Assembly (NCBI RefSeq): GCF_009765225.1
Contig: NZ_VMSF01000001.1
Location: 620,001 to 684,000, forward strand
DNA from: Leifsonia sp. AG29
GTDB lineage: Bacteria; Actinomycetota; Actinomycetes; Actinomycetales; Microbacteriaceae
Length of the DNA: 64,000 nt
Reading direction: 5' to 3'
The notes beneath the pieces are model-generated. The model had not been told where the DNA came from. It did no database searches and saw only the letters and a list, made by a program, of their open reading frames with translations. Position numbers and translations under genes: made by a program. Of the stretch, positions 15,957 to 62,916 are shown piece after piece. Within the stretch, counting starts at the first letter, position 1. Each line of letters starts with the position of its first letter.

Positions 15957-15983
15957 AAGGATTCCGACGAGTTCGAGGTGCAC

Positions 15984-17366
15984 ATGACCGAGCAGGGGAT
16001 CACTCAGCCGCCGGCCACCGGCACGACCAGTGACGAGGCCGTCCTGGCATCGGAGGCGTTCGTCGTCGGCTTCCCGCTGGTGTTCGACCTGGAGCAGGTC
16101 GACCGGTTCGTCCGCGAGGGGATCGGCAGCACGCCGGCGACGCCGTTCAACGCCTTCGGTCACGCCCGTTCGCTGGCGGGTCCCGACGACACCTTCGTCT
16201 CCATCAACAACGACACCGTCTATTCGATCGCGCAGATCGACCTGGGCACCGGCCCGCTGCTGCTCCGCATCCCGGATTCGGGCGACCGCTACCGCGTCCT
16301 CCAGTTCGTCGACGCCTGGACGGAGAACTTCGCCTACGTCGGGACACGTGCCACCGGGAACGGCGCGGGGGAGTTCCTCCTCGTCCCGCCGGACTGGCAG
16401 GGGGAGGCGCCCGCTGACACGACGCTCATCCGTTTCCCCACGCGGATCGGCTCCATCGTCGGCCGCTGGGCCGTCGACGGCGCGGCCGACCTGCCCGCCG
16501 TCCGTGCGCTGCAGGACGCCCTGACGCTGACTCCGACCCGGGAGACCTTCGCTGCACCGGAGGGCGTACCCGCCGTGCCGCAGGGACCGAGCGACGCGCT
16601 GACCTTCTTCGAGCGCCTCCGCGTGTGGTCGCGGGCCTTTCCTGCCGCGCCCCACGACACGGCGGCGCTCGAATCGTACGAGCCGCTCGGGCTCACCGGC
16701 GATGTGCCCGTCTCCGAGTTGCCCGCTGCCACGCAGGCGGCGCTCGAGGCCGGGTACGCGGTCGGCAACGAGGCGCTGGAGGCGGCCCTGCGCGCGGGTG
16801 CCGCCGTCGACGGCTGGCAGCTCAACCTCCACGCCTTCGACTACAACGTCGACTTCTTCGAGGTGGGCACCCTCCGCGACGACGCCTGGATGATGACCGA
16901 CACGAGCACGCGGTACGCGAACCGCGCCGCGGCGGCGCTCGGTGGTCTGTGGGGCAACCACGGCTACGAGGCGGCGTACGCGTCGACGTACGTCGACGCC
17001 GACGGCCGGGCGCTCGACGGCGCGAACGAATACCGGCTCCGGCTCAGCCCGACGCCGCCGGTCGGCGCCTTCTGGTCGCTGACCATGTACGACCTTCCGG
17101 ACTACTACCTGGTCCGCAACGAGCTCGACCGCTACTCGCTCGGCGACCGCACGCCGGGCCTCGTGCACGACGACGACGGAGGACTGACGATCACGATGAG
17201 CGCGACCCGACCGGCCGACCCGAAGGCCGCGGCGAACTGGCTGCCGGCACCCGCGGGTCCGTTCCGCCCGCTGCTGCGGATGTACCTCCCCGGCGCCGAC
17301 GTGCTCTCGGGCGAGTACCGCCTCCCGGCGATCGAACGCGTCGACGCGAGCGAGAGGACGGCCTGA
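15984..17366 (+). CDS. DUF1254/DUF1214 domain protein
   Basis: A 460-residue protein with an N-terminal DUF1254 domain (residues about 20-160; VSINNDTVYSIAQIDLGTGPLLL) and a C-terminal DUF1214 domain (about 320-455; GAFWSLTMYDLPDYYLVRNELDRYSLGDRT). The biochemical role of this widespread family is unknown. Many members are exported but no signal peptide is seen here, so this one is probably cytoplasmic. The ATG at 15984 has a GAGGT site; a GTG two codons earlier overlaps that site. It ends two bases before pta and probably heads a multi-gene transcript. Confidence 0.8.
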   Translation: MTEQGITQPPATGTTSDEAVLASEAFVVGFPLVFDLEQVDRFVREGIGSTPATPFNAFGHARSLAGPDDTFVSINNDTVYSIAQIDLGTGPLLLRIPDSGDRYRVLQFVDAWTENFAYVGTRATGNGAGEFLLVPPDWQGEAPADTTLIRFPTRIGSIVGRWAVDGAADLPAVRALQDALTLTPTRETFAAPEGVPAVPQGPSDALTFFERLRVWSRAFPAAPHDTAALESYEPLGLTGDVPVSELPAATQAALEAGYAVGNEALEAALRAGAAVDGWQLNLHAFDYNVDFFEVGTLRDDAWMMTDTSTRYANRAAAALGGLWGNHGYEAAYASTYVDADGRALDGANEYRLRLSPTPPVGAFWSLTMYDLPDYYLVRNELDRYSLGDRTPGLVHDDDGGLTITMSATRPADPKAAANWLPAPAGPFRPLLRMYLPGADVLSGEYRLPAIERVDASERTA

Positions 17367-19504: not shown

Positions 19505-20703
19505 GCGCCGTCCTCGTCGTCAACAGCGGCTCGTCGTCGTTCAAGTACCAGCTGATCGACAGCGAGTCGGAGGAGTCCCTCGCGTCCGGCCTCGTCGAGC
19601 GGATCGGCGAGGCGAGCGGTCGGACCTCCCATCGCGGACCGGACGGCACCAGCGAGCGCACCCTGCAGATCCCCGACCACACGGCCGGGTTCCGCGCGAT
19701 GCTGGACGCCTTCGCCGAGCACGGCCCGAGCCTCGACGAGAACCCGCTCGACGCCGTCGGCCACCGCGTGGTGCACGGCGGCAAGCGGTTCTTCGAGCCG
19801 ACTGTCGTGACACCCCTCGTCGAGATCAACATCGAGGATCTCTCCGATCTCGCGCCCCTCCACAACCCGGCGAACCTCCAGGGCATCCGCGCCGCCCGGG
19901 CCGCGTTCCCGGATGTCCCGCACGTGGCCGTCTTCGACACGGCGTTCCACCAGACGCTGCCACCGGCGGCCTACACCTACGCGATCGACGCGGGGCTCGC
20001 CGAGCGCCACCGGGTCCGCCGCTACGGCTTCCACGGCACCTCCCACAAGTACGTGTCGGAGGCGGCGGCCCGCTTCCTCGGCCGGCCGATCGAGGAGCTG
20101 CGCCAGATCGTCCTCCATCTGGGCAACGGGGCGTCGGCATGCGCCGTCCGTGGCGGACGGTCGGTGGAGACGTCGATGGGCATGACACCGCTCGAGGGGC
20201 TCGTCATGGGCACGCGCTCGGGCGACCTCGACCCGGCGGTGCTCCTGCATCTCGCGCGGCGTGCGCACCTCGGCACGGACGAGCTCGACGAACTGCTCAA
20301 CCGCCGCAGCGGACTGCTCGGTCTCTCCGGCCGAGGCGACATGAGAGATGTGCGCCAGGCCGCCGAGAACGGTGACGAGGCCGCCCGTCTGGCCCTCGAC
20401 ACGACGATCCACCGGCTGAAGCACTACATCGGCGCGTACACCGCCCTGCTCGGCGGTCTCGACGTGCTCGTCTTCACCGCCGGTATCGGCGAGAACGACG
20501 CGAGGCTGCGCGAGGAGACGCTGGAGGGGCTCGGATTCCTCGGCATCGAGCTCGATCCCGAGCGCAACGCGGCGTCCGATCGCGGGGCCCGGGTGATCTC
20601 GACGGACGGGTCCGCCGTGACGGTGCTCGTCGTCCCGACCAACGAGGAGCTCGAGATCGCGCGCCAGTCGCTCCAGGCGGTCGCGCGGGAGCGGGCCGAC
20701 TGA
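19501..20703 (+). CDS. ackA: Acetate kinase
   Basis: A 400-residue ASKHA-fold kinase converting acetyl phosphate and ADP to acetate and ATP. The N-terminal NSGSSSFKYQ motif, HRVVHGG, the FHGTSHKYV segment and the MGTRSGDLDP and FTAGIGEN motifs are all present, so it looks fully active. It overlaps pta by four bases and is surely co-transcribed with it. The next gene, a lipoprotein, begins 25 bases downstream on the same strand, so the transcript may continue through three more genes. Confidence 0.96.
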   Translation: MSAVLVVNSGSSSFKYQLIDSESEESLASGLVERIGEASGRTSHRGPDGTSERTLQIPDHTAGFRAMLDAFAEHGPSLDENPLDAVGHRVVHGGKRFFEPTVVTPLVEINIEDLSDLAPLHNPANLQGIRAARAAFPDVPHVAVFDTAFHQTLPPAAYTYAIDAGLAERHRVRRYGFHGTSHKYVSEAAARFLGRPIEELRQIVLHLGNGASACAVRGGRSVETSMGMTPLEGLVMGTRSGDLDPAVLLHLARRAHLGTDELDELLNRRSGLLGLSGRGDMRDVRQAAENGDEAARLALDTTIHRLKHYIGAYTALLGGLDVLVFTAGIGENDARLREETLEGLGFLGIELDPERNAASDRGARVISTDGSAVTVLVVPTNEELEIARQSLQAVARERAD

Positions 20704-20728
20704 GGCGAACAGGGCCGGGAGGCGCGAG

Positions 20729-22072
20729 ATGCTGCGACGGAGCGGCGAACAGGCGCGGCGGGGCGGCCCGGCGGCGCGGTTCGTCGCCGTGCTCGCCGCC
20801 TCCCTGCTCGCCCTCGCGGCGCTCGCAGGGTGCAGCACGTCGCCCTACTCCGAGGGCCCTCACTTCGTCACGCCGCCGCTCATCCGCTACAGCTCCGTGC
20901 TGTGGCCGGTTCCGCTCGAGCTCGTCGGCGCCGAGCCCGGAGCGACGCTCCGGCTGCGCTCATCCCTGAGCACGAGCCGGGGCGTCTGGAGTTCGGCGGC
21001 GACCTACCAGGTGCCCGCGTCGGGCATCCTCGACATGGCGACCGCGCGGCCGCAGCTCGCCCCCTACGCCCAGCCCGACTCGGCCGGCCTGTTCTGGTCG
21101 CTCCGCGGTCCGCAGCTCAGCCCGAGCGACCAGGTGCGCCAGTGGATGACCAGCACCGTCACCCTCACCCTCTCGGCGTGGGACGGCGCCCGGCTGGTCG
21201 CCGAGCGCACCTTCCGATTGCAGGGGCTGGCGGCCGACCTGCACCCGCGGACCGTCCGCACGCGAGACCTCCTGGGGGATGCGCCCGGCATGCTGCCGCC
21301 GCAGACCCACGAGGACGGGCCGGTCGGCACCTTCTGGAGCGCCGCCTCCCTCGAGCGGCCCGCCACCCCCGCGGTCGTGATGTTCGACGATCCGTCGGCC
21401 GGTGCATCCTCGGCGTACACCGCACCGCTGCTCGCCGAGTTCGGTGCCTCGGTCTTCGTCGTACCGCTCGCCGGCGCCCGCGACGGGGTCCGGCTGACGG
21501 GCGCGATCGACGACTCGACGGTGGAGGCGGTGCTCGCCTGGCTGCAGGAGCGCCCGGACGTCCTGAGCCGCCGGGTCTTCGTCTACGGGACGGGCGCGGC
21601 CGGCGCCGTCGCGGTCTGGGCGGCCACGCACTTCGCCTCGCGGATCGCCGGGCTGTTCGAGGCGGGCGGCACGCCCGTGGTGCTGTGCTCCCCGGACGGC
21701 GGCGCGAGCCCGATCCGGGAAGGCGGCGTCCCGGTCCCGTGCAACGGAGCGACCGAGCCCGTGTCGCGGGCCTTCGCCCGGTCGATCGATGTCGTGCGGG
21801 GCCCGGTCGTGCTCGCGTGCGGCGGGCGCGACGCGGTGCTCCCGTCGGCGTGCGCGTGGCAGGAGGCGCTCGCCGAGACGCGAGCGCATCGGGCGTCCGA
21901 CAGCGTGCAGGAGGCGGCGGTCGCCGGGCACGCGGTGTCCGTCCCTCCCGGACTGCCGATCGCGCTCGACACGGGAGGCGCGGCGGGCTTCTCGCCGCAG
22001 GCGACCGAGAAGGCCCGGGTGGCGTTCTGGAACGCCGTCGGCCAGATCATCCTGAGGGCGGCGATCTCGTGA
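20729..22072 (+). CDS. Acyl-CoA thioesterase/BAAT-like lipoprotein, paralogue 1 (no nucleophile)
   Basis: A 447-residue lipoprotein with lipobox LAGC (Cys about 35). Residues 45-165 resemble the N-terminal beta-sandwich of acyl-CoA thioester hydrolases and bile-acid-CoA:amino-acid N-acyltransferases, including the SAGLFWSLRGP signature. An alpha/beta-hydrolase BAAT_C-like domain follows (about 200-440). Where family members have the GxSxG nucleophile elbow, this protein reads GTGAA (287-291), so the catalytic Ser/Cys is missing, while later Asp (GRDAVLP) and His (AGHAVSVPP) positions remain. It is probably inactive as a hydrolase and may bind ligand. First of three tandem paralogues. Confidence 0.75.
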   Translation: MLRRSGEQARRGGPAARFVAVLAASLLALAALAGCSTSPYSEGPHFVTPPLIRYSSVLWPVPLELVGAEPGATLRLRSSLSTSRGVWSSAATYQVPASGILDMATARPQLAPYAQPDSAGLFWSLRGPQLSPSDQVRQWMTSTVTLTLSAWDGARLVAERTFRLQGLAADLHPRTVRTRDLLGDAPGMLPPQTHEDGPVGTFWSAASLERPATPAVVMFDDPSAGASSAYTAPLLAEFGASVFVVPLAGARDGVRLTGAIDDSTVEAVLAWLQERPDVLSRRVFVYGTGAAGAVAVWAATHFASRIAGLFEAGGTPVVLCSPDGGASPIREGGVPVPCNGATEPVSRAFARSIDVVRGPVVLACGGRDAVLPSACAWQEALAETRAHRASDSVQEAAVAGHAVSVPPGLPIALDTGGAAGFSPQATEKARVAFWNAVGQIILRAAIS

Positions 22073-23382
22073 GCGCCGCGGGTCGGGGCGCGCCAGTGCG
22101 GCGCATGGCCGGTGCTCTCCGGTCGGCCGCTTCGCTGATCGTGATCGGCCTCCTGCTGACCGCCTGCTCGGTCGCCGCGGGAGGCGGTCCCCGGTTCACG
22201 CTCAGCCGTTTCGGCGACGGGATCGCCGACCCGCTCGCCATCGAGATCTCGGGGCTCCAGCCGGGGGAGAACGTGACGCTCACCGCGACAGCCCGGACGG
22301 TCTCCGGAGTCTGGCGGTCGCGCGCGGTCTACGCGGTCCCGCCGGACGGCCGGGTTCAGCTCTGGGCCGAGAAGCCCCTCCTCGCCCCGTACGTCCGCCC
22401 CGACCCGGCCGCGCTGCTGTGGAGCATGTCCGGGCCCGCCCTGAGCCAGGCGGAGCTCGAACGCACGTGGGCCCTGTCGGGCGCCCGCGTCGCCTTCACC
22501 GCCGAGCAGGGCGGGCACCTCGCCGCGTCCGCGTCCCTCCAGCGGGCGGCGCTCTCGGACGGAAGCCAGGTCCGTCCCGTGTTCGACGCCGACCTGGCCG
22601 CCGGCGGCCTGGCGCCGACCGGGGACCCGGCCCTGGCGCAGGTAGGGACGTACTTCTCGCCGCAGCCGCCGAGAAGCGGACCCCAGCCGGGTGTGCTCAT
22701 CGTGGACGGCGACGAGGCCGGCGCTTCGGCGGCATTCGCCGCCCGGACGCTCGCCGCCGCCGGGTTCGCCGTCATCGTCGTGCCGGCCTTTGGACCGGAG
22801 GGCCAGATCCCGGGGTCGTCTGCGCTCGCCGTGGAGAGGCTGGACGCGGCGCTCCGCTGGTTCACCGCGCGGCCCGCGGTCGACCCGGAACGCGTCTTCA
22901 CCTACGGCACCGGGGCTGCGGCACCGATCGCCCTGTGGTTCGCGACGCACGAGCCCGACGCCGTCTACGGTGCCATCGCGGCCTCGGGGCCGACCGCGCT
23001 CCTCTGCGCCGCCTCGGACGGGTCGCCGACCCTCACCGCTGAAGGCGCCGCGGTGCCTTGCGAGCCCCTCGGCCGCAGCGTGGCCGACACCACGATCCTT
23101 CCGCTGGAGCAGATCCGCGGACCGGTGCTCCTGGCGTGCGGGACTGCGGATCAACTGCTGCCCGCGGCGTGCGACTGGACGCGGGCAGGAGCGCTCCGGC
23201 GCGGCCTCCGCGCGGGGCAGGCGTTCCTGGCCCAGGGCGCGTCGCACGAGATCACCGCGCCGCCCCTCCTGCCCATCGGCCTGAGCGACCTCGCCCCGTC
23301 GGCGGCGCAGGCCACCGAGGACGCCCGGGCAGGATTCTGGTCGCGGGTGGACACCCTTCTCGAGAATGCGATCCGGCGATGA
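22069..23382 (+). CDS. Acyl-CoA thioesterase/BAAT-like lipoprotein, paralogue 2 (no nucleophile)
   Basis: A 437-residue paralogue of its neighbours. The GTG at 22069 overlaps the previous stop (GTGA); an internal ATG 12 codons later is possible. The lipobox is LTAC (Cys about 33). The thioesterase-type N-domain (AALLWSMSGPALS near residues 114-126) precedes a BAAT_C-like hydrolase domain. The nucleophile elbow again reads GTGAA (280-284) in place of GxSxG, while the Asp (GTADQLLP) and His (GASHEITAPP) regions are kept. It would be anchored on the outer face of the membrane. The coupled translation suggests it acts with its two neighbours, perhaps as a complex (inference). Confidence 0.75.
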   Translation: MSAAGRGAPVRRMAGALRSAASLIVIGLLLTACSVAAGGGPRFTLSRFGDGIADPLAIEISGLQPGENVTLTATARTVSGVWRSRAVYAVPPDGRVQLWAEKPLLAPYVRPDPAALLWSMSGPALSQAELERTWALSGARVAFTAEQGGHLAASASLQRAALSDGSQVRPVFDADLAAGGLAPTGDPALAQVGTYFSPQPPRSGPQPGVLIVDGDEAGASAAFAARTLAAAGFAVIVVPAFGPEGQIPGSSALAVERLDAALRWFTARPAVDPERVFTYGTGAAAPIALWFATHEPDAVYGAIAASGPTALLCAASDGSPTLTAEGAAVPCEPLGRSVADTTILPLEQIRGPVLLACGTADQLLPAACDWTRAGALRRGLRAGQAFLAQGASHEITAPPLLPIGLSDLAPSAAQATEDARAGFWSRVDTLLENAIRR

Positions 23383-24635
23383 GGCGGGGACGGTTCGGGA
23401 CGCTCGCCGTCCTCGGCGCCGCACTCTTTGCGGTGGTGGCGCTTCTCGGAGGCTGCTCCGCCTCCTCGGGAGCGGCCGGTCCCCGCTTCGTCCTGGATCA
23501 GAACCCCACGGGCGTGTGGGAGCCGGTCCACATCCGTCTGGTGGCTCTGCCGCCGGGGGAGCGCGTGGCGATCACCGCCACGGCACGGGTCGGAGCGGTC
23601 TGGAGCTCGCGCGCCGTGTACATCGTCCCTCCGGACGGCGTCGTGGACCTCGACCGGGCGACGCCCGCCGATGCGCCGTGGACGGGCGCCGACGGCATGG
23701 GGCTGTTCTGGTCGCTCCGGAGCGCATCGGGCGCTGCAGCGACCTCCGACGAGACGTGGGGAGGCGCGTCGATCGCCGTGAGGCTCGACGCCGTCGTCGG
23801 CGGACGCCGTGCGGCGACGACCACGGTCCAGCGGATCGGCCTCGCGACGGCCGCGCCGTCGCGAGCGGTGTACGAAGACGGGATCTCGGGCGACTACTTC
23901 GCTCCGACCGTCGGCTCGGAGGCGCTGCGCCCCGGAGTCGTCGTGCTCGACGGAACGGACCCGGGGTCGTCGTCGGGCGTGCTCATCGCCTCCACGCTCT
24001 CGGCGCTCGGCTACCCGGCGCTGGCGCTCTCGACGTACGGGCCGTCCGGAGCTCTGGACCCGCGCCGGATCTTCCCGGCCGAGCGGTTCCTCGCGGCGCT
24101 CGACTGGCTGCGCACCCAGCCCGGTGTCGACGATCAGCGCATGTTCGTCCTGGGGACATCCCGCGGGGCGCCGCTCGCGCTCTGGGCGGCGGCCGCGTAC
24201 CCCGGCACGGTGTACGGCGCGATCGCTCCGGGAGGGACGACGGGCCTCATCTGCGCGTCCCCCGTCCCGTCGCCCGCGGTCACCGTCGACGGCGACTGGG
24301 TGCCCTGCACTCCGGGGACCCGGGTCGTGTCGCCGGCGACCGTGCTGGATCTCCGCGGCATTCCGGGCCCCGTCGTGCTCGGCTGCGCGGGGGCGGACGA
24401 ACAGCTCGACAACGGGTGCGAGTGGATGGACGCGGCGGCGCGGATCCGCCCCGCCCGGGAGGGGGATGCGTACCTGCGTGCGGCCGACGCCACGCACCTG
24501 TTCTTCCTGCCTCCCTACACGCCGCTCGACCTCCCTCCCGCACCGCACGCGCAGGCCACCGAGGACGCCCGGGCAGCCCTCTGGCGCGCCATTGAGGAGG
24601 CGCTCGCCGGGCCGTCCGTGGTGCCCGGACGCTGA
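23379..24635 (+). CDS. Acyl-CoA thioesterase/BAAT-like lipoprotein, paralogue 3 (apparently active)
   Basis: A 418-residue third paralogue, overlapping the second by ATGA. The lipobox is LGGC (Cys 26). The N-domain has GADGMGLFWSLRS (103-115). The hydrolase domain keeps the full nucleophile elbow GTSRG (259-263, Ser 261), with candidate triad partners Asp 340 (GADEQLD) and His 373 (ATHLFF). It is therefore the only one of the three likely to hydrolyse or transfer acyl groups. The lipoprotein location argues against intracellular acyl-CoA as the real substrate; an extracellular thioester or ester is more likely (inference). It ends about 70 bases before dnaX. Confidence 0.75.
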   Translation: MRRGRFGTLAVLGAALFAVVALLGGCSASSGAAGPRFVLDQNPTGVWEPVHIRLVALPPGERVAITATARVGAVWSSRAVYIVPPDGVVDLDRATPADAPWTGADGMGLFWSLRSASGAAATSDETWGGASIAVRLDAVVGGRRAATTTVQRIGLATAAPSRAVYEDGISGDYFAPTVGSEALRPGVVVLDGTDPGSSSGVLIASTLSALGYPALALSTYGPSGALDPRRIFPAERFLAALDWLRTQPGVDDQRMFVLGTSRGAPLALWAAAAYPGTVYGAIAPGGTTGLICASPVPSPAVTVDGDWVPCTPGTRVVSPATVLDLRGIPGPVVLGCAGADEQLDNGCEWMDAAARIRPAREGDAYLRAADATHLFFLPPYTPLDLPPAPHAQATEDARAALWRAIEEALAGPSVVPGR

Positions 24636-24693
24636 TCGCGCCGGAGCGTCCGCGCGAGCCCCCGCCACCCGGGGAAATGTCGGCCGCGCAAAG

Positions 24694-24699
24694 TAGCAT
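24694..24699 (+). promoter_or_regulatory. -10 box giving a probably leaderless dnaX mRNA
   Basis: TAGCAT ends six bases before the GTG start and no ribosome site is visible, so transcription probably begins at the start codon. Confidence 0.5.
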
Positions 24700-24705
24700 G
24701 TGTGA

Positions 24706-27180
24706 GTGGTAACCGCTCTCTATCGCCGCTATCGGCCCGACACCTTCGCCGACATGATCGGCCAATCGCAGGTGACCGAGCCGTTGATGACGGCGCTGCG
24801 CACCAATCGCGTGAACCACGCCTACCTCTTCTCCGGCCCCCGGGGCTGCGGCAAGACGACGTCCGCGCGCATCCTCGCCCGCTGCCTCAACTGCGCCGAG
24901 GGCCCGACCGACACCCCGTGCGGCGTGTGCGCGAGCTGCGTCGAGCTCAGCCGCGACGGCGCCGGATCGCTCGACGTCGTCGAGATCGACGCCGCGAGCC
25001 ACAACGGCGTCGACGACGCGCGCGACATCCGCGAGCGCGCCGTCTTCGCCCCCGCGCGCGACCGCTACAAGATCTTCATCCTCGACGAGGCGCACATGGT
25101 CACCCCGCAGGGCTTCAACGCCCTGCTGAAGATCGTGGAGGAGCCGCCGGAGCACGTGAAGTTCATCTTCGCGACCACGGAGCCCGAGAAGGTGATCGGC
25201 ACCATCCGGTCCCGGACCCACCACTACCCGTTCCGGCTCGTGCCCCCCGCGCAGATGCTCGCCTACGTCCAGTCGCTCTGCGACACCGAGGGCATGACCG
25301 TCGCGCCGGGCGTCCTCCCGCTCGTGGTGCGTGCGGGTGGAGGCTCGCCCCGAGACACCCTGTCGCTCCTCGACCAGCTGATGGCGGGTTCCGAGGGCAG
25401 CTCGATCGACTACGAGCGCGCCGTCGCGCTCCTCGGCTACACGCACGCGGCCCTCCTCGACGAGGTGGTCGACGCGATCGCTGCGCGCGACGCCGCCGGT
25501 GCCTTCGCGGCGGTCGACCGTGTCGTCCAGACCGGCCAGGATCCGCGCCGCTTCGTCGAAGACCTGCTCGAGCGGCTGCGCGACCTCATCGTCGTCGCCG
25601 CGACCAGCGTCGAGGGCGCCGCCGCCGTGCTGCGCGGCGTCCCGCAGGACGAGCTCGACCGGATGGGCGTGCAGGCCATGAAGTTCGGCGCCGCCGAGCT
25701 GAGCCGCGCCGCCGACATCGTCAACGCAGCCCTGACCGAGATGACCGGGGCGACCTCGCCGCGCCTCCATCTCGAACTCATGATCGCCCGCGTCCTCGTC
25801 CCGTCGAGCGACGACACCGAGCGTGGCGCCCTCGCGCGGGTGGAGCGCCTCGAGCGCCGTGTCGGCGTCGGGGACGCGCTGGGTGCGGGTGCGCCCGCCG
25901 CGCCGTCGGCTCCGGCCGCTCCCGTGGTGAGCGTGCCGGCCCCGGCACCTGTCGAGCCTGCTGCGCCACCGGCGCGGAGGGAGCCCCCGACGGCCCCCGC
26001 CGCCCCGGCTCGACGTGGGAGCGCGCCGACCGAGCGCGAGACGCCCGCTGCGGCTGCCCGCGTTCCGGCCGCGGTCGAAGAGCCTGCGCCCGCAGCCGAG
26101 CCCTCAGCCACGGCCGCGGCTGCGGCCGCTGCCGTGCCGGTCGGGCCCGTGAGCACCCAGCAGGTCAAAGACGCGTGGCCCCAGATCCTCGACGCCGTCC
26201 AGCGGGCGAAGCGAAGTGCCTGGATGGTGGTCTTCACGGCCCAGGTGCGCTCCCTCGCCGGCGATGTCCTGACGCTCTCGTTCCCGAGCGAGAACGATGT
26301 GCAGAGCTTCCGCCAGCCCGAGGCGGGAGGGTCGCAGGGCGTGAGCGAGTACCTCCGCCAGGCGATCGTCGACATCCTCGGCATCCGGGTCAAGTTCATC
26401 GCGCGCGCCGACTCGGCGCCCGCGGCCGCCTCCGGTTCTGCGCCACGCCCTGTCTCCGGTGCGCCGTCCGTCCCGGTAGCCGACCCGTGGCCCGGCGCTG
26501 ACGGAGGATCTGCGGCTTCGACCACGGCACCGGCTGCGCCCTCGCGCGGGTCATCCGCCCCTGCTGCATCGGCTCCCGCGCCCCGCGCCTCCTCGGCGCC
26601 GGCTGCACCGTCCCAGGGATCGTCCGCGCCGGCGACGCCGTCCGGCGCTGCGGTGACCGATTGGGTGACCGTGGCCATCCCGGGTAGTGGCGCGGCCTCC
26701 GCTGGCGCGGCCGAGGGGGCCGTCGCGACGCTCGAGCGCCCAGCACCCGCTGCTCCGGCCGCCGCGGGGGAGTCTCAGCGACCGGTTCCGACTGCGACCG
26801 CTGCCGCCACCGTCGCAGCACCGGTGGCCGCTCCGGTCGACGACGAGCCGCCGTTCGACGACGTCCCGCCGCCGGAGATCGAGCCCGACATCGAGCCGCC
26901 GGTGCCCGAAGAGCCCGCCGACTGGGCTGACGCCCCCGTCGAGGCGATCGTGGGCGCTCCTGCTGCCGTTCCGGCCGCCGCCGCTCCTGCGCGTCCCGCC
27001 TCGGCGCCCACGGGCGGCGCACCGGCCGCGGCCGAACCCTCCCGGAGCGCACCGGCCCGCGGCAGCCGCACGCCCACCTTCCAGGAGCCGCAGCGGTACG
27101 GCGAGGCCGTCGTCCGCGAGATCCTCGGCGCGACGTTCCTCGAAGAGAAGCCCGCCCCTCCCACCCCGGGAATGAGGTAG
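24706..27180 (+). CDS. dnaX: DNA polymerase III subunits gamma and tau
   Basis: An 824-residue clamp-loader ATPase. The N-terminal AAA+ domain has Walker [10 protein letters not shown] (44-52), a four-cysteine zinc module ([19 protein letters not shown], about 62-80) and Walker B ILDEAH. The arginine-finger position reads [10 protein letters not shown], a normal SRC-like segment. From about residue 390 the protein becomes long, alanine- and proline-rich, broken by a conserved tau-type block near 480-570 ([20 protein letters not shown]). No slippery A-run like that of E. coli is seen, so a separate short gamma form is not supported. The gene ends four bases before recR. Confidence 0.95.
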
Positions 27181-50769: not shown

Positions 50770-52719
<1,950 letters not shown>

Positions 52720-52814
52720 GGGGAGTCTGTTCGCTCCTTTGCGATGCGGTTTCAGTGGTCGTGGCGCGACACTGCCTGACTTTACAACCTCCGATCGCGA
52801 CGCCCGACGGAGAC

Positions 52815-52842
52815 TTGCGTTTGCATTGATTGTGCGTAAACT
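52815..52842 (+). promoter_or_regulatory. Promoter of the 6C RNA
   Basis: TTGCGT (52815-52820) and TAAACT (52837-52842) are separated by 16 bases, one of the best sigma-70-type promoters in the window. It predicts a transcript start near 52849. Confidence 0.75.
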
Positions 52843-52848
52843 AGGGGG

Positions 52849-52951
52849 CGGCCGAATGTTGAATTCTGGCGTGCGGCGCAAACGATTCCCCCCAATCCTG
52901 CGCCGCAGTGGCCGCACCTGTTCCCCCCAATAGGTGCGGCCCCCCCTTTTT
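52849..52951 (+). ncRNA. 6C RNA
   Basis: Two consecutive hairpins each display a C-rich loop. The first has TGCGGCGCA/TGCGCCGCA arms around AACGATTCCCCCCAATCC (about 52872-52907); the second has GGCCGCACCT/AGGTGCGGCC arms around GTTCCCCCCAAT (about 52910-52941). A C-run and TTTTT follow as terminator. Two stem-loops with six or more cytosines define the actinobacterial 6C RNA class. Its position between acs and a tad locus is also as expected. The C-rich loops are thought to pair with G-rich target mRNAs such as Shine-Dalgarno regions. Confidence 0.9.
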
Positions 52952-53102
52952 AACCGGTAGGTCCCGGCTCGCAGCGCGGCGTGCCGGTCACCCGGGTCCG
53001 GCGCTGTCCCTCTCAGGGCCCGGGAGTGTCCCTCCCAAGCGGGCCGCCGCGCCGCGTCTCCACAGATCGAGCCGCGAGCGTCGTGTGCGGAGCCGTCCGC
53101 CT

Positions 53103-53108
53103 TAGTGT
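53103..53108 (+). promoter_or_regulatory. -10 box of tadA, leaderless
   Basis: TAGTGT stands 13 bases before the tadA ATG. No ribosome site is visible. Confidence 0.4.
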
Positions 53109-53115
53109 CGCCGTC

Positions 53116-54111
53116 ATGGCTCACACCTTGCCGCCGACGGCACTCACCCCGTCCGCGGCCGGACCCGAGTCCGTCCGCCCGGGGCTCTGGGCGACGTTCG
53201 GGAGGCTCGCGCCCTACCTCCTGAGGAGGGGGCTCACCGACCTGTTCATCACCGGCTCCGGCGAGCTCTGGTGCAACGGTCCGGACGGCCTGCGGCACGC
53301 GCCCGGGGAAACGTTCGACCCGGCGGAGGCGCGGGCGCTCGCCGTGGCGCTGATCGCCCGCGGAGGACGGCACCTCGACGAAGTGTCTCCATTCGTCGAC
53401 GTCGTGCTGGCGGGCGGCGTGCGGGTGCACGCCGTGCTTCCGCCCGTGTCGACGGGAGGGGCGCTCGTGTCGATCCGGGTGCCGCGCAATGCGGCGCCGA
53501 GCATGCGCGAGCTCCTGAGCGCCCGCTTCCTTACGGTCGAGCAGCACGACGTCCTCCTGCGTGCGGTGCGAGAGCGATCGAACATCCTCATCTCCGGCCC
53601 CGGAGGCGCGGGCAAGACCACGCTGCTCGGGGCTCTGCTGGCGGAGGCGCCCCCGACGGAACGCATCGTCCTCATCGAGGACGTCGCCGAGCTCCGGGTG
53701 ACGCACCCCCATGTCGTCGGCCTGCAGACCCGTCAGCCGAACCTCGAGGGCGCCGGGGGCGTCGACCTGCGGCGTCTGGTCCGCGAGGCCCTGCGGATGC
53801 GGCCCGACCGTCTGGTGCTGGGGGAGTGCCGGGGCGAGGAGGTGCGCGAGCTTCTCTCGGCGCTCAACACGGGCCACGACGGAGGCGCGGGCACGCTTCA
53901 CGCGAACTCGCTCGTCGACGTGCCCGCGCGGCTCGAAGCGCTCGGGAGCCTTGCGGGGCTCGGAGAGTCCGCGCTGGCGCGGCAGGCGGTCAGCGCTCTC
54001 GATCTCCTCGTCCATCTGTCGCGCCCGAGCCGCGGGCGGCGGGTCGAGGCTCTCGGCCGCCCGGCGATCGGTGCGTCGGGACGGCTCGTCGTCGAGCAGG
54101 TACCGGTGTGA
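53116..54111 (+). CDS. tadA: TadA/CpaF-family pilus assembly ATPase
   Basis: A 331-residue secretion ATPase. Walker A is [14 protein letters not shown] (about 157-170), the Asp box IEDVAELRV, Walker [34 protein letters not shown], and the His box follows. It powers assembly of Flp-type pili. The protein is short, with only a brief N-terminal part before the TadA core. The ATG at 53116 follows a TAGTGT box. The stop overlaps the next gene (GTGA), so the locus is translationally coupled. A prepilin peptidase (TadV) and a TadZ-like protein are absent from this window. Confidence 0.88.
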
Positions 54112-55073
54112 GAGCGAGGAACGCGGAAGCGCGTCGTGCTGCCGCCTTCCGTCCCCCACGGCGGTCCGGTCGACGGTCGCCTCCCGGAGACGAGGACGAC
54201 CGGGCGGCAGAGCTCGCAGAGTCTCTCGCCGTGCTGCTCGACGCGGGATTGTCGCCGCGCTCCGCTTGGGAGGCGGTTGCGGAGGAGAGCAAGGACTCGC
54301 GTGTCACCCGGGTGGCGCGGCTTCTCGCCACCGGCGCCGACCTCTCGTCCGGGGTCGTCGCCGCACTGGCCGGAAGCCCGCTCGCGGTCATCGCCGTGGC
54401 TTGGCTGGTCGCGGCCGAGGTGGGTGCGCCGCTCGGAGCAGCAGCCCGAGGCATCTCCGAGCTGTTCCGGGAGCGCGCCCAGACGGCGCGCGACATCGAC
54501 GTGGCCGTCAGCGGCCCGCGCGCGACCGCTCGGCTCGTGAGCGGCCTCCCGCTCGCCGGTCTGGCGATGGGGTGGCTGATGGGCGTCGACGTCCTGGGCG
54601 TCCTGCTCGGCTCACCGGCCGGCCTCGGCCTCCTGGCTGCGGGAGGGGCGCTCGGCATCGCCGGACACCTCTGGTCCCGATCGCAGGTGCGCCGTGCTCT
54701 GCCGGGGGACGAGTCAGTGGGGGTGTACGCGGACCTCCTCGCGGTCGCCCTCCGCGGCGGCATGTCGATCGGCAGGGCGCGGGCCCTGGTCACGGCGTCC
54801 GCCGAGGCCGCTCGGATCGTCCTTCCCGAGCCTGCCGGCGTGGAAGGTGTGCTGCGACTCGCGGAAAGGACGGGTGCGCCCGCTGCCGAGCTCCTGGAGG
54901 CGGCCGGTCGGCGCGACAGGCGCCATCGCCGTGCCGAGGGGGCGCGATCCGCCGGCGTGCTCGGAGTGCGTCTGCTGGCGCCGGTCGGGCTGTGCGTTCT
55001 TCCCAGCTTCATCGCGTGGGGCATCGCCCCGGTGATCCTGGGCCTTCTCTCGTCCACAGGGAGCGTCGCTTGA
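54108..55073 (+). CDS. Fused TadB-TadC type II secretion F-domain protein
   Basis: A 321-residue inner-membrane platform protein. It appears to contain two F-domain halves in one chain: [21 protein letters not shown] (about residues 42-62) with following helices, then [21 protein letters not shown] (about 212-232) with a second helical pair near the C-terminus. Most actinobacterial tad loci encode these as separate TadB and TadC proteins. It would be the membrane base on which TadA acts. The GTG at 54108 overlaps the tadA stop. Confidence 0.75.
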
Positions 55074-60136: not shown

Positions 60137-61360
60137 ATGGCAGTGTGGGACGACCTGACCGGTCAGGAAGACGCGATCGCGGTCGTCCGCGCCGCCGCCG
60201 AGAGCGGCAAACGAGGTGCGCCGTCCCTCCACGAAGCCGGAGCAGTGGCCGAGGCCGCCGGAGCCGACGGCCGCGGGATGACGCACTCGTGGCTGATCAC
60301 GGGGCCGCCGGGGTCCGGTCGGTCCAACCTCGCCTTCGCGTTCGCCACGGCGCTGCTGAGCCCCGGCACCCCGGAGGGCGACCTCGCGACGCAGCGGCAG
60401 GTAGAGGCGCGGACTCACCCCGACCTCGCCGTGCTCAGCACCGACCGCGTCATCATCTCGATCGACGAGGTGCGGTCGCTCGTCGCCACTTCCCAGTTCG
60501 CGCCGTCGGTCGGGCGCTATCGCGTCATGATCATCGAAGACGCCGACCGGATGACCGAACGCACCTCCAACGTCCTCCTGAAGGCCTTGGAGGAGCCGCC
60601 CGAGCGCACGGTGTGGATCCTCTGCGCGCCGAGCGACGCCGACCTCCTCCCGACGATCCGCTCCCGCGTCCGCACCGTGCGACTGGCGGTGCCCAGCGTC
60701 GACGACGTCGCCCGGCTGATCGAGCGCCGCGACGGGGTCGACCCCGCGACCGCCGAGCGCGCCGCCCGGCACGCCCAGAGCCACATCGGCATGGCGCACC
60801 GGCTCGCCACCCACGAGGAGGCGCGGCGCCGCCGCGAGCGCACCCTCGAGCTCGCCCTCGGCATCCGGTCCGTCTCCGACGCCGTGCTGGCGGCGGCGAG
60901 CCTCCTCGAGATCGCCGGGGCCGACGCCAAGGCGATCACGGAGGAGCGCGACGCCGAGGAGCGCGAACACGCGCTCCGGTCGCTCGGGATCGAGCCCGGG
61001 GGCAGCATCCCGCCCGCGCTCCGCGGCCAGCTGCGGCAGCTCGAAGATGACCAGAAGCGCCGAGCGACGCGAGGCCTCCGCGATGGGATCGACCGCATCC
61101 TCGTCGACCTGCTCTCCGTCTACCGCGACGTCATGATGCTCCAGCTCGACAGCCGCAGCGAACTCGTGAACACCGAGATCCTGGCGCAGCTCCGAGCTCT
61201 CAGCGAGCACACGAGTCCCGCCGATACGCTCGCCGCGATGGACGCCATCGCCACGGCCCGCGAACGGATCGAGGCGAACGTCGCGCCCGTGCTCGCCCTC
61301 GAGGCGATGCTGATCACCATCCTGCGCGGCACGGCCGCTCGAAAGGGGACCGACCTGTGA
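60137..61360 (+). CDS. holB: DNA polymerase III delta' subunit
   Basis: A 407-residue clamp-loader subunit beginning MAVWDDLTGQEDAI. The P-loop is degenerate (GPPGSGRSN, with Arg for the usual Lys), as expected for non-hydrolysing delta'. Conserved segments include SIDEVRSLV, YRVMIIEDADRMTERTSNVLLKALEEPPERTVWIL and IRSRVRTV. It forms the clamp loader with DnaX. ATG 60137 is preferred over an upstream start at 60107 because of homology and the TAGCCT box. It overlaps the lipoprotein gene by four bases. Confidence 0.92.
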   Translation: MAVWDDLTGQEDAIAVVRAAAESGKRGAPSLHEAGAVAEAAGADGRGMTHSWLITGPPGSGRSNLAFAFATALLSPGTPEGDLATQRQVEARTHPDLAVLSTDRVIISIDEVRSLVATSQFAPSVGRYRVMIIEDADRMTERTSNVLLKALEEPPERTVWILCAPSDADLLPTIRSRVRTVRLAVPSVDDVARLIERRDGVDPATAERAARHAQSHIGMAHRLATHEEARRRRERTLELALGIRSVSDAVLAAASLLEIAGADAKAITEERDAEEREHALRSLGIEPGGSIPPALRGQLRQLEDDQKRRATRGLRDGIDRILVDLLSVYRDVMMLQLDSRSELVNTEILAQLRALSEHTSPADTLAAMDAIATARERIEANVAPVLALEAMLITILRGTAARKGTDL

Positions 61361-62916
61361 CCACCCGACCCGGACGGTCCGCTGGCCGACGTCGCGGCGT
61401 CCGTACGGCCATCGTCGCCGTCGCAGCCGTGCTCGCGCTCACCCTGACCGGGTGCGTGACCTGGTTGATACCCCCGAAGTCCGTGCAGACCTCCACACCG
61501 TCTCCCGAGAAGGTGGCCACCGATCTTCAGCCGTTCTACTCGCAGACCCTCACCTGGTCGAACTGCGACTCCGGCAAGCAGTGCGCCACGGCGAAGGCGC
61601 CCCTCGACTGGCAGCACCCGGCGGCAGGCGAGATCGAGCTCGCGCTGATCCGGCAGCAGGCGAAGGGGGACCGGCAGGGCTCCCTGCTGGTCAACCCCGG
61701 TGGCCCCGGCGCCTCCGGCTACGACTTCGTCAAGGACTCGGTCGACTACGCGACCGACAAGACCCTCCAGGACTCGTTCGACGTCGTCGGTTTCGATCCT
61801 CGCGGGGTCGGCCGATCGACCGCCGTCAAGTGCTACGACCCGAAGCAGATGGACGACTACCTGTACGGCATCACGCCCGGCGTGCGCGGCTCTGACGAGT
61901 GGCTCGCGGCGAACACCGAGACGGCGAAGGGGTTCGCCGCCGCTTGCGATCAGAAATCCCAGAAGCTGCTGGCGCACGTCGACACCGTCAGCGCGGCGCG
62001 CGACCTCGACCTGCTGCGCGCGGTGCTCGGCGACAAGAAGCTCAACTATCTCGGTTACTCGTACGGCACCTACCTCGGGGCCACGTATGCCGACCTCTAC
62101 CCCGGCAAGACCGGCCGCCTGGTGCTCGACGGCGCCCTCGACCCCGCCGCGAGCAACGCCGACGTCACCATGGTGCAGGCCCAGGGGTTCGAGAGCGCCC
62201 TCCGCGCCTACCTCAAGGACTGCCTGAGCCAGAAGGGCTGCCCGTTCACCGGAACGGTCGACCAGGCCATGACGACCGTCGGCCAGCTGCTCGCCAGCGT
62301 CGACCGCAGCCCCATCCGCAACTCCGACGGGAGGGAGCTGGGCGCCAACACTCTCCTCACCGCGATCATCACGCCGCTGTACGACGCCACGGCCTGGTCG
62401 TACCTGACCAAGCTGTTCGACTCGGTGATGAAGGGCGACGCCTCCGTGGCCTTCGTGCTGGCCGACTCCTACAACGACCGCAACAGCGACGGCACGTACT
62501 CAGACAACGGCACGGAGGCCTTCACGGCCATCAACTGCCTCGACTACCCGGTCGACGCGAGCGTCCCGGCGATGCGGGCCAACGCCGCTCAGCTCGCCCA
62601 GGTCGCGCCGGTGATCGGGCCGTACATGGCTTACGGGGAGCTCAGCTGCGGCACGTGGCCGTATCAGTCCACTGTGCAGCGCGCCCCGATCCACGCCAAG
62701 GGGTCGGCACCCATCCTCGTCATCGGCACGACCAACGACCCGGCCACCCCGTACGTCTGGGCGAAGAACCTCGCGTCCGAACTCGAGAACGGGCACCTGC
62801 TCACCTACCGCGGCGAAGGCCACACCGCCTACAACAAGTCGAACTCGTGCGTGAACGGAACGGTGGACGACTTCCTCGTCCATGGCACCGTCCCCACGGC
62901 CGGGAAGACCTGCTGA
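61357..62916 (+). CDS. Lipoprotein alpha/beta hydrolase, TAP-like peptidase family
   Basis: A 519-residue lipoprotein (lipobox LTGC near residue 33) of the Slp/TAP C-terminal hydrolase family. The nucleophile elbow is GYSYG, the oxyanion/HGG-like turn is NPGGPGASG, Asp lies in GTTNDPATPY, and His in GEGHTAYN. Related enzymes are extracellular aminopeptidases or proteases releasing short peptides. The GTG overlaps the holB stop, so it is co-transcribed with a replication gene, an arrangement common in actinobacteria. Cysteines in SNCDSGKQCA and near the C-terminus may form disulfides. Confidence 0.88.
   Translation: MTTRPGRSAGRRRGVRTAIVAVAAVLALTLTGCVTWLIPPKSVQTSTPSPEKVATDLQPFYSQTLTWSNCDSGKQCATAKAPLDWQHPAAGEIELALIRQQAKGDRQGSLLVNPGGPGASGYDFVKDSVDYATDKTLQDSFDVVGFDPRGVGRSTAVKCYDPKQMDDYLYGITPGVRGSDEWLAANTETAKGFAAACDQKSQKLLAHVDTVSAARDLDLLRAVLGDKKLNYLGYSYGTYLGATYADLYPGKTGRLVLDGALDPAASNADVTMVQAQGFESALRAYLKDCLSQKGCPFTGTVDQAMTTVGQLLASVDRSPIRNSDGRELGANTLLTAIITPLYDATAWSYLTKLFDSVMKGDASVAFVLADSYNDRNSDGTYSDNGTEAFTAINCLDYPVDASVPAMRANAAQLAQVAPVIGPYMAYGELSCGTWPYQSTVQRAPIHAKGSAPILVIGTTNDPATPYVWAKNLASELENGHLLTYRGEGHTAYNKSNSCVNGTVDDFLVHGTVPTAGKTC

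Follow-up and report, generated by a model that had tools for sequence, protein, structure and literature searches.

Why should a bacterium keep, directly beside an apparently complete serine hydrolase, two close relatives of that hydrolase which lack the catalytic serine? The question is raised by a stretch of 64,000 nucleotides from Leifsonia sp. AG29 (NCBI RefSeq assembly GCF_009765225.1, contig NZ_VMSF01000001.1, positions 620,001 to 684,000 of the forward strand), which was analysed as a whole and is here called the window, and in which three consecutive genes, P1, P2 and P3, encode lipoproteins of the BAAT/ACOT family. We propose that P3 is a membrane-anchored enzyme and that P1 and P2 are its pseudoenzyme partners. 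This is our best reading of the array, to which we give a probability of about 0.5, and both the complex and the activity are predictions. An earlier interpretation made from the DNA letters (the sequence-only reading) had placed three tandem lipoprotein genes here, and their coordinates, strand and order, together with a lipobox cysteine in each, are correct:

20729..22072, + strand: P1, BAAT/ACOT-like lipoprotein with Gly289 at the nucleophile position, Asp368 and His401 kept
20831..20833, + strand: P1 lipobox Cys35
21593..21595, + strand: P1 elbow codon GGC (Gly instead of Ser)
22069..22072, + strand: GTGA stop/start overlap of P1 and P2, which holds if P2 begins at the GTG at 22069
22069..23382 (GTG start) or 22105..23382 (ATG start), + strand: P2, BAAT/ACOT-like lipoprotein with Gly270 at the nucleophile position, Asp349 and His381 kept (residues counted from the ATG at 22105)
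22165..22167, + strand: P2 lipobox Cys21
22912..22914, + strand: P2 elbow codon GGG (Gly instead of Ser)
23379..23382, + strand: ATGA stop/start overlap of P2 and P3
23379..24635, + strand: P3, BAAT/ACOT-like lipoprotein with Ser261-Asp340-His373 in canonical positions
23454..23456, + strand: P3 lipobox Cys26
24159..24161, + strand: P3 nucleophile Ser codon TCC

The BAAT/ACOT N-terminal domain PF04775 scores above its cut-off of 27 bits in P1, P2 and P3 (45.6, 54.8, and 61.8 bits, respectively), while the C-terminal PF08840 (BAAT_C) remains below its cut-off of 20.9 bits in all three (12.2, 12.9, and 15.9 bits). The predicted models of P3 and P2 align with human ACOT4/ACOT2 across both domains, as determined with VIA-align over Foldseek matches, and the BAAT/ACOT assignment of the sequence-only reading is thus right by fold for these two models. 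A search of the PDB by sequence with P2 finds ACOT4 at an E-value of 6e-8 for the whole protein, with no single stretch passing 0.001, and the same search with P1 finds no solved relative at an E-value of 0.001. In an alignment of the family profile with human ACOT4, the Ser, Asp and His of P3 lie opposite the elbow Ser and the Asp and His stretches of ACOT4, which we take to be the ACOT4 triad. The P3 triad is complete by sequence and by model topology, and its elbow reads GTSRG, whereas the elbow of both P1 and P2 in the window reads GTGAA, with Gly at the nucleophile position. The Asp and His said to be retained beside the missing Ser are indeed present in all three proteins.

To place these residues in an evolutionary context, three homology searches, each of which scored the 8000 candidates sharing most words, yielded 260 proteins. 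Seven proteins shorter than 390 residues were omitted and 334 sequences were aligned, including 81 from the genomes or from the window itself; two fragments were dropped for coverage (the halves of the P1 of genome G005), leaving 332 in the tree, or 322 after subtraction of ten outgroups, and the window proteins and some genome copies occur twice among these 322. FastTree resolves three clades corresponding to P1 (117 sequences), P2 (100) and P3 (105), with supports of 1.0, 0.997, and 0.989, and, when rooted on the ten relatives from outside both genera, P1 and P2 are sisters (support 0.978). Each of the three clades includes both Leifsonia and Diaminobutyricibacter. The nucleophile position is Ser in 104 of the P3 sequences and Ala in one; it is Gly in 69, Trp in 30 and Ser in one of the P2 sequences; and it is Gly in 93, Ser in 22 and Ala in two of the P1 sequences. 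The proportions are similar for the proteins from the searches alone (P1, 73 Gly, 16 Ser and one Ala among 90; P2, 51 Gly, 25 Trp and one Ser among 77; P3, 76 Ser and one Ala among 77). A chance reading of the GTGAA elbow is ruled out by its recurrence in the clade-wide alignments. The claim that two copies lack the nucleophile therefore stands for P1 and P2 of the window and for 99 of the 100 P2 sequences, but it does not extend to the whole of the P1 clade. Down-pass parsimony places Trp at the base of P2, with three changes within the clade; for P1 the ancestral residue is Ser, and four changes follow within the clade. Hence P2 was probably already dead when Leifsonia and Diaminobutyricibacter diverged, and the disarming of P1 probably came later and more than once, although the number of P1 losses hinges on a quick tree.

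The same alignment bears on where the proteins reside. The lipobox pattern is found at the aligned Cys in 117/117 P1, 93/100 P2 and 104/105 P3 sequences, signal peptides being judged by a simple pattern only, and we infer a location at the cell surface. Four further Cys residues are invariant in the three clades and mostly absent from the outgroups (C320, C338, C364 and C375 in P1 of the window, encoded within 21686-21853, with counterparts in P2 and P3). They suggest possibly two disulfides specific to this branch of the family, with which an extracytoplasmic place would fit.

The array is found in 26 of 28 Leifsonia genomes by a search with P3, the window's genome included, and in two Diaminobutyricibacter genomes. 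Of 199 sampled genomes of the bacterial family, 10 contain relatives of P3, and multiple matches in a single genome are confined to these two genera. All three genes are present in 22 of the 28 array-bearing genomes (including G078, which has two P1 genes, and G005, in which P1 is split), P1 and P3 in five (including G011), and P2 and P3 in one; P3 alone was found in none of the 28. A nucleophile-less relative accompanies the Ser-bearing copy in 28/28 of them, with that of G011 read by eye from a long open frame; this P1 is absent from the tree, so that the tree listing gives G011 Ser only. Two of the genomes deserve a separate remark, as P1 of G005 (locus L054) lies in two reading frames and the P1 frame of G011 (L060) runs into P3 without a stop, and each may be a real break or an assembly error. 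The translational coupling that the overlapping genes had suggested is likewise conserved over the genus. Of the 21 P1 to P2 junctions, 20 have an available start in the -4 register (the other being -1), as have 22/22 P2 to P3 and 4/4 P1 to P3 junctions, and the window adds one -4 junction each to the first two classes, giving a 4-nt overlap in 48 of 49.

If the nucleophile-less copies were not under selection, this should be evident from their codons. The ratio of nonsynonymous to synonymous substitution rates (dN/dS), from our own Nei-Gojobori count over ten close genome pairs, is 0.06-0.31 for P1 (10 pairs), 0.09-0.26 for P2 (8 pairs) and 0.08-0.21 for P3 (10 pairs), compared with 0.03-0.13 for ackA, and hence purifying selection on P1 and P2 is about as strong as that on P3 and weaker than that on ackA, a housekeeping gene next to the array. 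Judged from these ratios, P1 and P2 are maintained proteins rather than debris. Where the constraint lies differs, however, between the copies. In the 21 genomes with all three genes, the alignment columns of the N-terminal domain have a mean entropy of 0.92, 1.20, and 1.04 bits in P1, P2 and P3, respectively, and those of the elbow core (P3 residues 250-310) one of 1.11, 0.92, and 0.45 bits. Only P1 is reversed, with its N-terminal domain better conserved than its core. Relative to the N-terminal domain and compared with P3, the core is relaxed by 0.77 bits in P1 (0 of 10,000 shuffles) and by 0.30 bits in P2 (92 of 10,000), where the entropies and permutations treat related sequences as independent and the shuffle counts are merely indicative. 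By this measure, the N-terminal domain has taken over from the active-site core as the more constrained part of P1. In addition, the distances of P1, P2 and P3 correlate with each other beyond those of ackA and dnaX (partial r 0.72-0.74; 0 of 2000 permutations; 19 genomes).

Loci outside of the two genera came from a scan of genome contigs using the closer alignment set and two P3-like patterns that omit the elbow. Of its 235 relatives the best 80 were kept (79 loci), and 66 of these loci are from other taxa, including actinomycetes, bacilli, chlamydiae and acidobacteria. One open reading frame of the family is present in 64 of these, one locus has a gene in two pieces, and one has two such frames, both with Ser; the last, L103 of Actinomadura harenae, is the sole other tandem pair among the 66. 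Ser is present in 67/67 of the frames with a scorable elbow. As the search patterns do not include the elbow, these loci are a fair test of that position in P3-like relatives; they are not a census of dead copies, and solitary ones could be missed.

From these results we propose the following model. The three genes would give rise to membrane-anchored lipoproteins with the two-domain fold of acyl-CoA thioesterases and BAAT, of which P3 is the predicted catalytic subunit, using Ser-Asp-His at the cell surface in a reaction on an ester or thioester or in acyl transfer. A cytosolic acyl-CoA seems an unlikely substrate for a protein that is predicted to be exported. P1 and P2 would be pseudoenzyme partners whose translation is coupled to that of P3, and would bind P3 or its substrate, P1 mainly through its N-terminal domain, and thereby activate, position or feed P3, although the direction of this regulation is conjectural. 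A conserved but poorly modelled loop of P2 (residues 232-238, 22798-22818; predicted local distance difference test score, pLDDT, below 50 in the P2 model) could be an interface. The constant company of P3, the tight coupling of the genes, the N-terminal domain as the best maintained part of P1 and the former Trp that parsimony assigns to the P2 elbow are most economically explained if P1 and P2 are partners of P3, and the hetero-oligomer suggested by the sequence-only reading fits the conserved overlaps, the co-retention and the purifying selection. A more specific version, which we advance only tentatively, is a surface hetero-oligomeric serine hydrolase of the BAAT/ACOT family in which an anciently dead P2 and a later, probably repeatedly disarmed P1 are obligate, prozyme-like partners of P3.

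Several observations weigh against this proposal. Overlapping genes and genes inherited together are frequent also in operons whose products do not interact; likewise, inheritance as a block could by itself explain the correlated distances. P2 is missing from five and P1 from one of the 28 genomes, so there can be no fixed three-part stoichiometry. The 22 P1 sequences with Ser mean that P1 may be an enzyme in the lineages that keep it, and one P2 sequence also has Ser. A P1-like copy with the elbow GTSQS stands apart from the array on the minus strand of G012 (G012:C15:690000-697000, L062), with no P2 or P3 match within 7 kb around it. The P3 with Ala appears to lie on a single metagenome contig of 93,552 bases (P0010, P0141 and P0216) together with a P1 and a P2 that both have Gly. 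The P2 of that contig also lacks the His. Finally, the entropy shift in P2 is merely relative, as its core (0.92 bits) is still better conserved than its N-terminal domain (1.20 bits), as in P3, and since entropy columns depend on one another, the shuffle counts are no more than a guide.

An unlikely explanation, although the one that best withstands the data after a partnership with P3, is that P1 and P2 act on their own as binding proteins at the surface, such as receptors or scavengers, which hold a ligand in the old acyl pocket and make no contact with P3. Such proteins would have the lipoboxes, the intact predicted fold of P2 and the mostly retained Asp and His that we observe, and with the small Gly at the elbow of most P1 and P2 proteins the pocket would stay open. 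However, the ancestral elbow residue of P2 assigned by parsimony is the bulky Trp, which would fill the pocket, and the receptor idea of the sequence-only reading is therefore weaker for P2, since the Trp would sit in the place of the ligand. In P1 it is the elbow core that is relaxed while the N-terminal domain is kept, and a pair of free-standing receptors does not account for the failure to find P3 alone in any of the 28 genomes.

That P1 and P2 are instead negative regulators or decoys, which titrate the substrate or dimerise with P3 and so lower its activity, we regard as quite improbable. The genomic facts are the same as for activating partners, and activation and inhibition are indistinguishable from sequence, yet a P3 that is accompanied in every one of the 28 genomes suits an obligate partner no less than an inhibitor.

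We consider it still more doubtful that P1 and P2 are active by means of another nucleophile or other chemistry with the retained Asp and His. The Asp is invariant (322/322, with 117/117 in P1 and 100/100 in P2), and the His is kept in 113/117 P1 and 88/100 P2, as well as in 105/105 P3. The P1 clade has Glu three residues after the elbow position in 94% of its members (window residue 292), where P3 has Ala, although P1 of the window has Gly. Ser238 of P2, at the end of the low-confidence loop mentioned above, is invariant (100/100) and clade-specific. On the other hand, the alignment up to 20 columns from the elbow shows no Ser, Cys, Thr or Lys that is specific to the P1 or the P2 clade at the 95% level, P3 shares the four invariant Cys other than that of the lipobox, and 12 of the 100 P2 sequences have lost the His. 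In what is presumably the oxyanion loop, the Gly-Gly of the outgroups is replaced in P1 by Asp-Asp, a weak point given that 11 of 105 P3 sequences have Asp at the second place. The least likely explanation, that P1 and P2 are decaying and functionless spare copies, could draw on the four changes of the P1 nucleophile, the broken P1 frames of G005 and G011 and the loss of copies in 6/28 genomes, but is contradicted by dN/dS values well below 1 on the intact genes that overlap those of P3, by the retention of the lipobox and of the predicted P2 fold, and by the presence of both genera in each clade.

The surroundings of the array are conserved, and it is placed between pta-ackA and dnaX in all 28 genomes that carry it. 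In the window the ackA stop codon is at 20701-20703 on the + strand upstream of P1, and the downstream neighbour is as follows:

24706..27180, + strand: dnaX, conserved downstream neighbour, GTG start at 24706

A scan of 20500-24900 found no promoter and no terminator (0.0 and 0.5 expected from shuffles). The genomes of the two Leifsonia that lack the array measure 2.6-2.7 Mb. In G017, about 290 bases separate the aligned ends of ackA and dnaX, and nothing in between matches the array (E-value under 1); in G022 neither ackA nor pta is found in about 6 kb upstream of dnaX. A functional link to pta-ackA, through acetate release and activation, was considered, but G017 has pta-ackA and dnaX together without the array, and the neighbourhood may accordingly be accidental. 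Elsewhere in the window, a DUF1254/DUF1214 protein is encoded upstream of pta-ackA (15978-17366, + strand); a frame of 1129 residues (50770-54159, - strand) has acetyl-CoA synthetase domains only from residue 509, its true start probably being far downstream; and a TAP-like alpha/beta hydrolase (61357-62916, + strand) adjoins a gene with a DNA polymerase III delta-subunit domain and shows no sign of a link to the array.

How does the array compare with known systems? It resembles ACOT2/ACOT4 and BAAT (PF04775 plus PF08840) in the full-length two-domain fold of the P3 and P2 models, the PF04775 domain in all three proteins and the Ser, Asp and His of P3. It is unlike them in the lipobox N-termini, the four shared Cys, the sub-threshold PF08840 scores, the missing nucleophile of P1 and P2 and the lack of a solved sequence relative of P1 at an E-value of 0.001. 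The actinobacterial BAAT-like proteins of Cellulomonas (P0086) and Micromonospora (P0090) share the domain order, a Cys near the N-terminus and the triad positions, but they keep the Ser, unlike P1 and P2 of the window, and pass the PF08840 cut-off, unlike all three proteins.

Partnerships between a dead and a live protein are known from elsewhere. ABHD5 is a mammalian protein of lipid droplets from another branch of the alpha/beta-hydrolases and is not a paralogue of the enzyme that it activates, and the trypanosomatid AdoMetDC/prozyme and deoxyhypusine synthase pairs have other folds and are eukaryotic. As the respective papers describe, ABHD5 (CGI-58) has Asn153 in place of the Ser with Asp and His kept (PMC9694394) and is reported to coactivate the lipase ATGL, and a catalytically dead paralogue activates the active enzyme in both AdoMetDC/prozyme (PMC5201418) and deoxyhypusine synthase (PMC3663545). 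The array would resemble ABHD5/ATGL, so described, in having a serine-less hydrolase as the proposed activator of an enzyme; the two trypanosomatid pairs were shown biochemically, whereas a partnership in the array is predicted from sequence and models. None of these precedents is a bacterial lipoprotein and none is of the BAAT/ACOT family, and among the titles and abstract openings surveyed there was no description of such an array and nothing on Leifsonia with BAAT.

The database names "acyl-CoA thioesterase" and "N-acyltransferase family," which are given to members of all three clades, are unlikely to fit most P1 and P2 proteins. As the dead copies are kept intact by selection beside the live one in Leifsonia, the comparison of genomes suggests that they serve, or work with, the Ser-bearing copy. 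The array represents a natural series from enzyme to pseudoenzyme partner, with Ser, Ala or Gly in P1 and Trp or Gly in P2 beside the near-constant Ser of P3, from which it can be tested whether the loss of catalysis came before or after the enzyme's dependence on its sister. If P1 and P2 are indeed obligate partners of P3, the evolutionary steps between the two states, with Ser, Trp, Gly and Ala at the elbow, would be preserved among living species.

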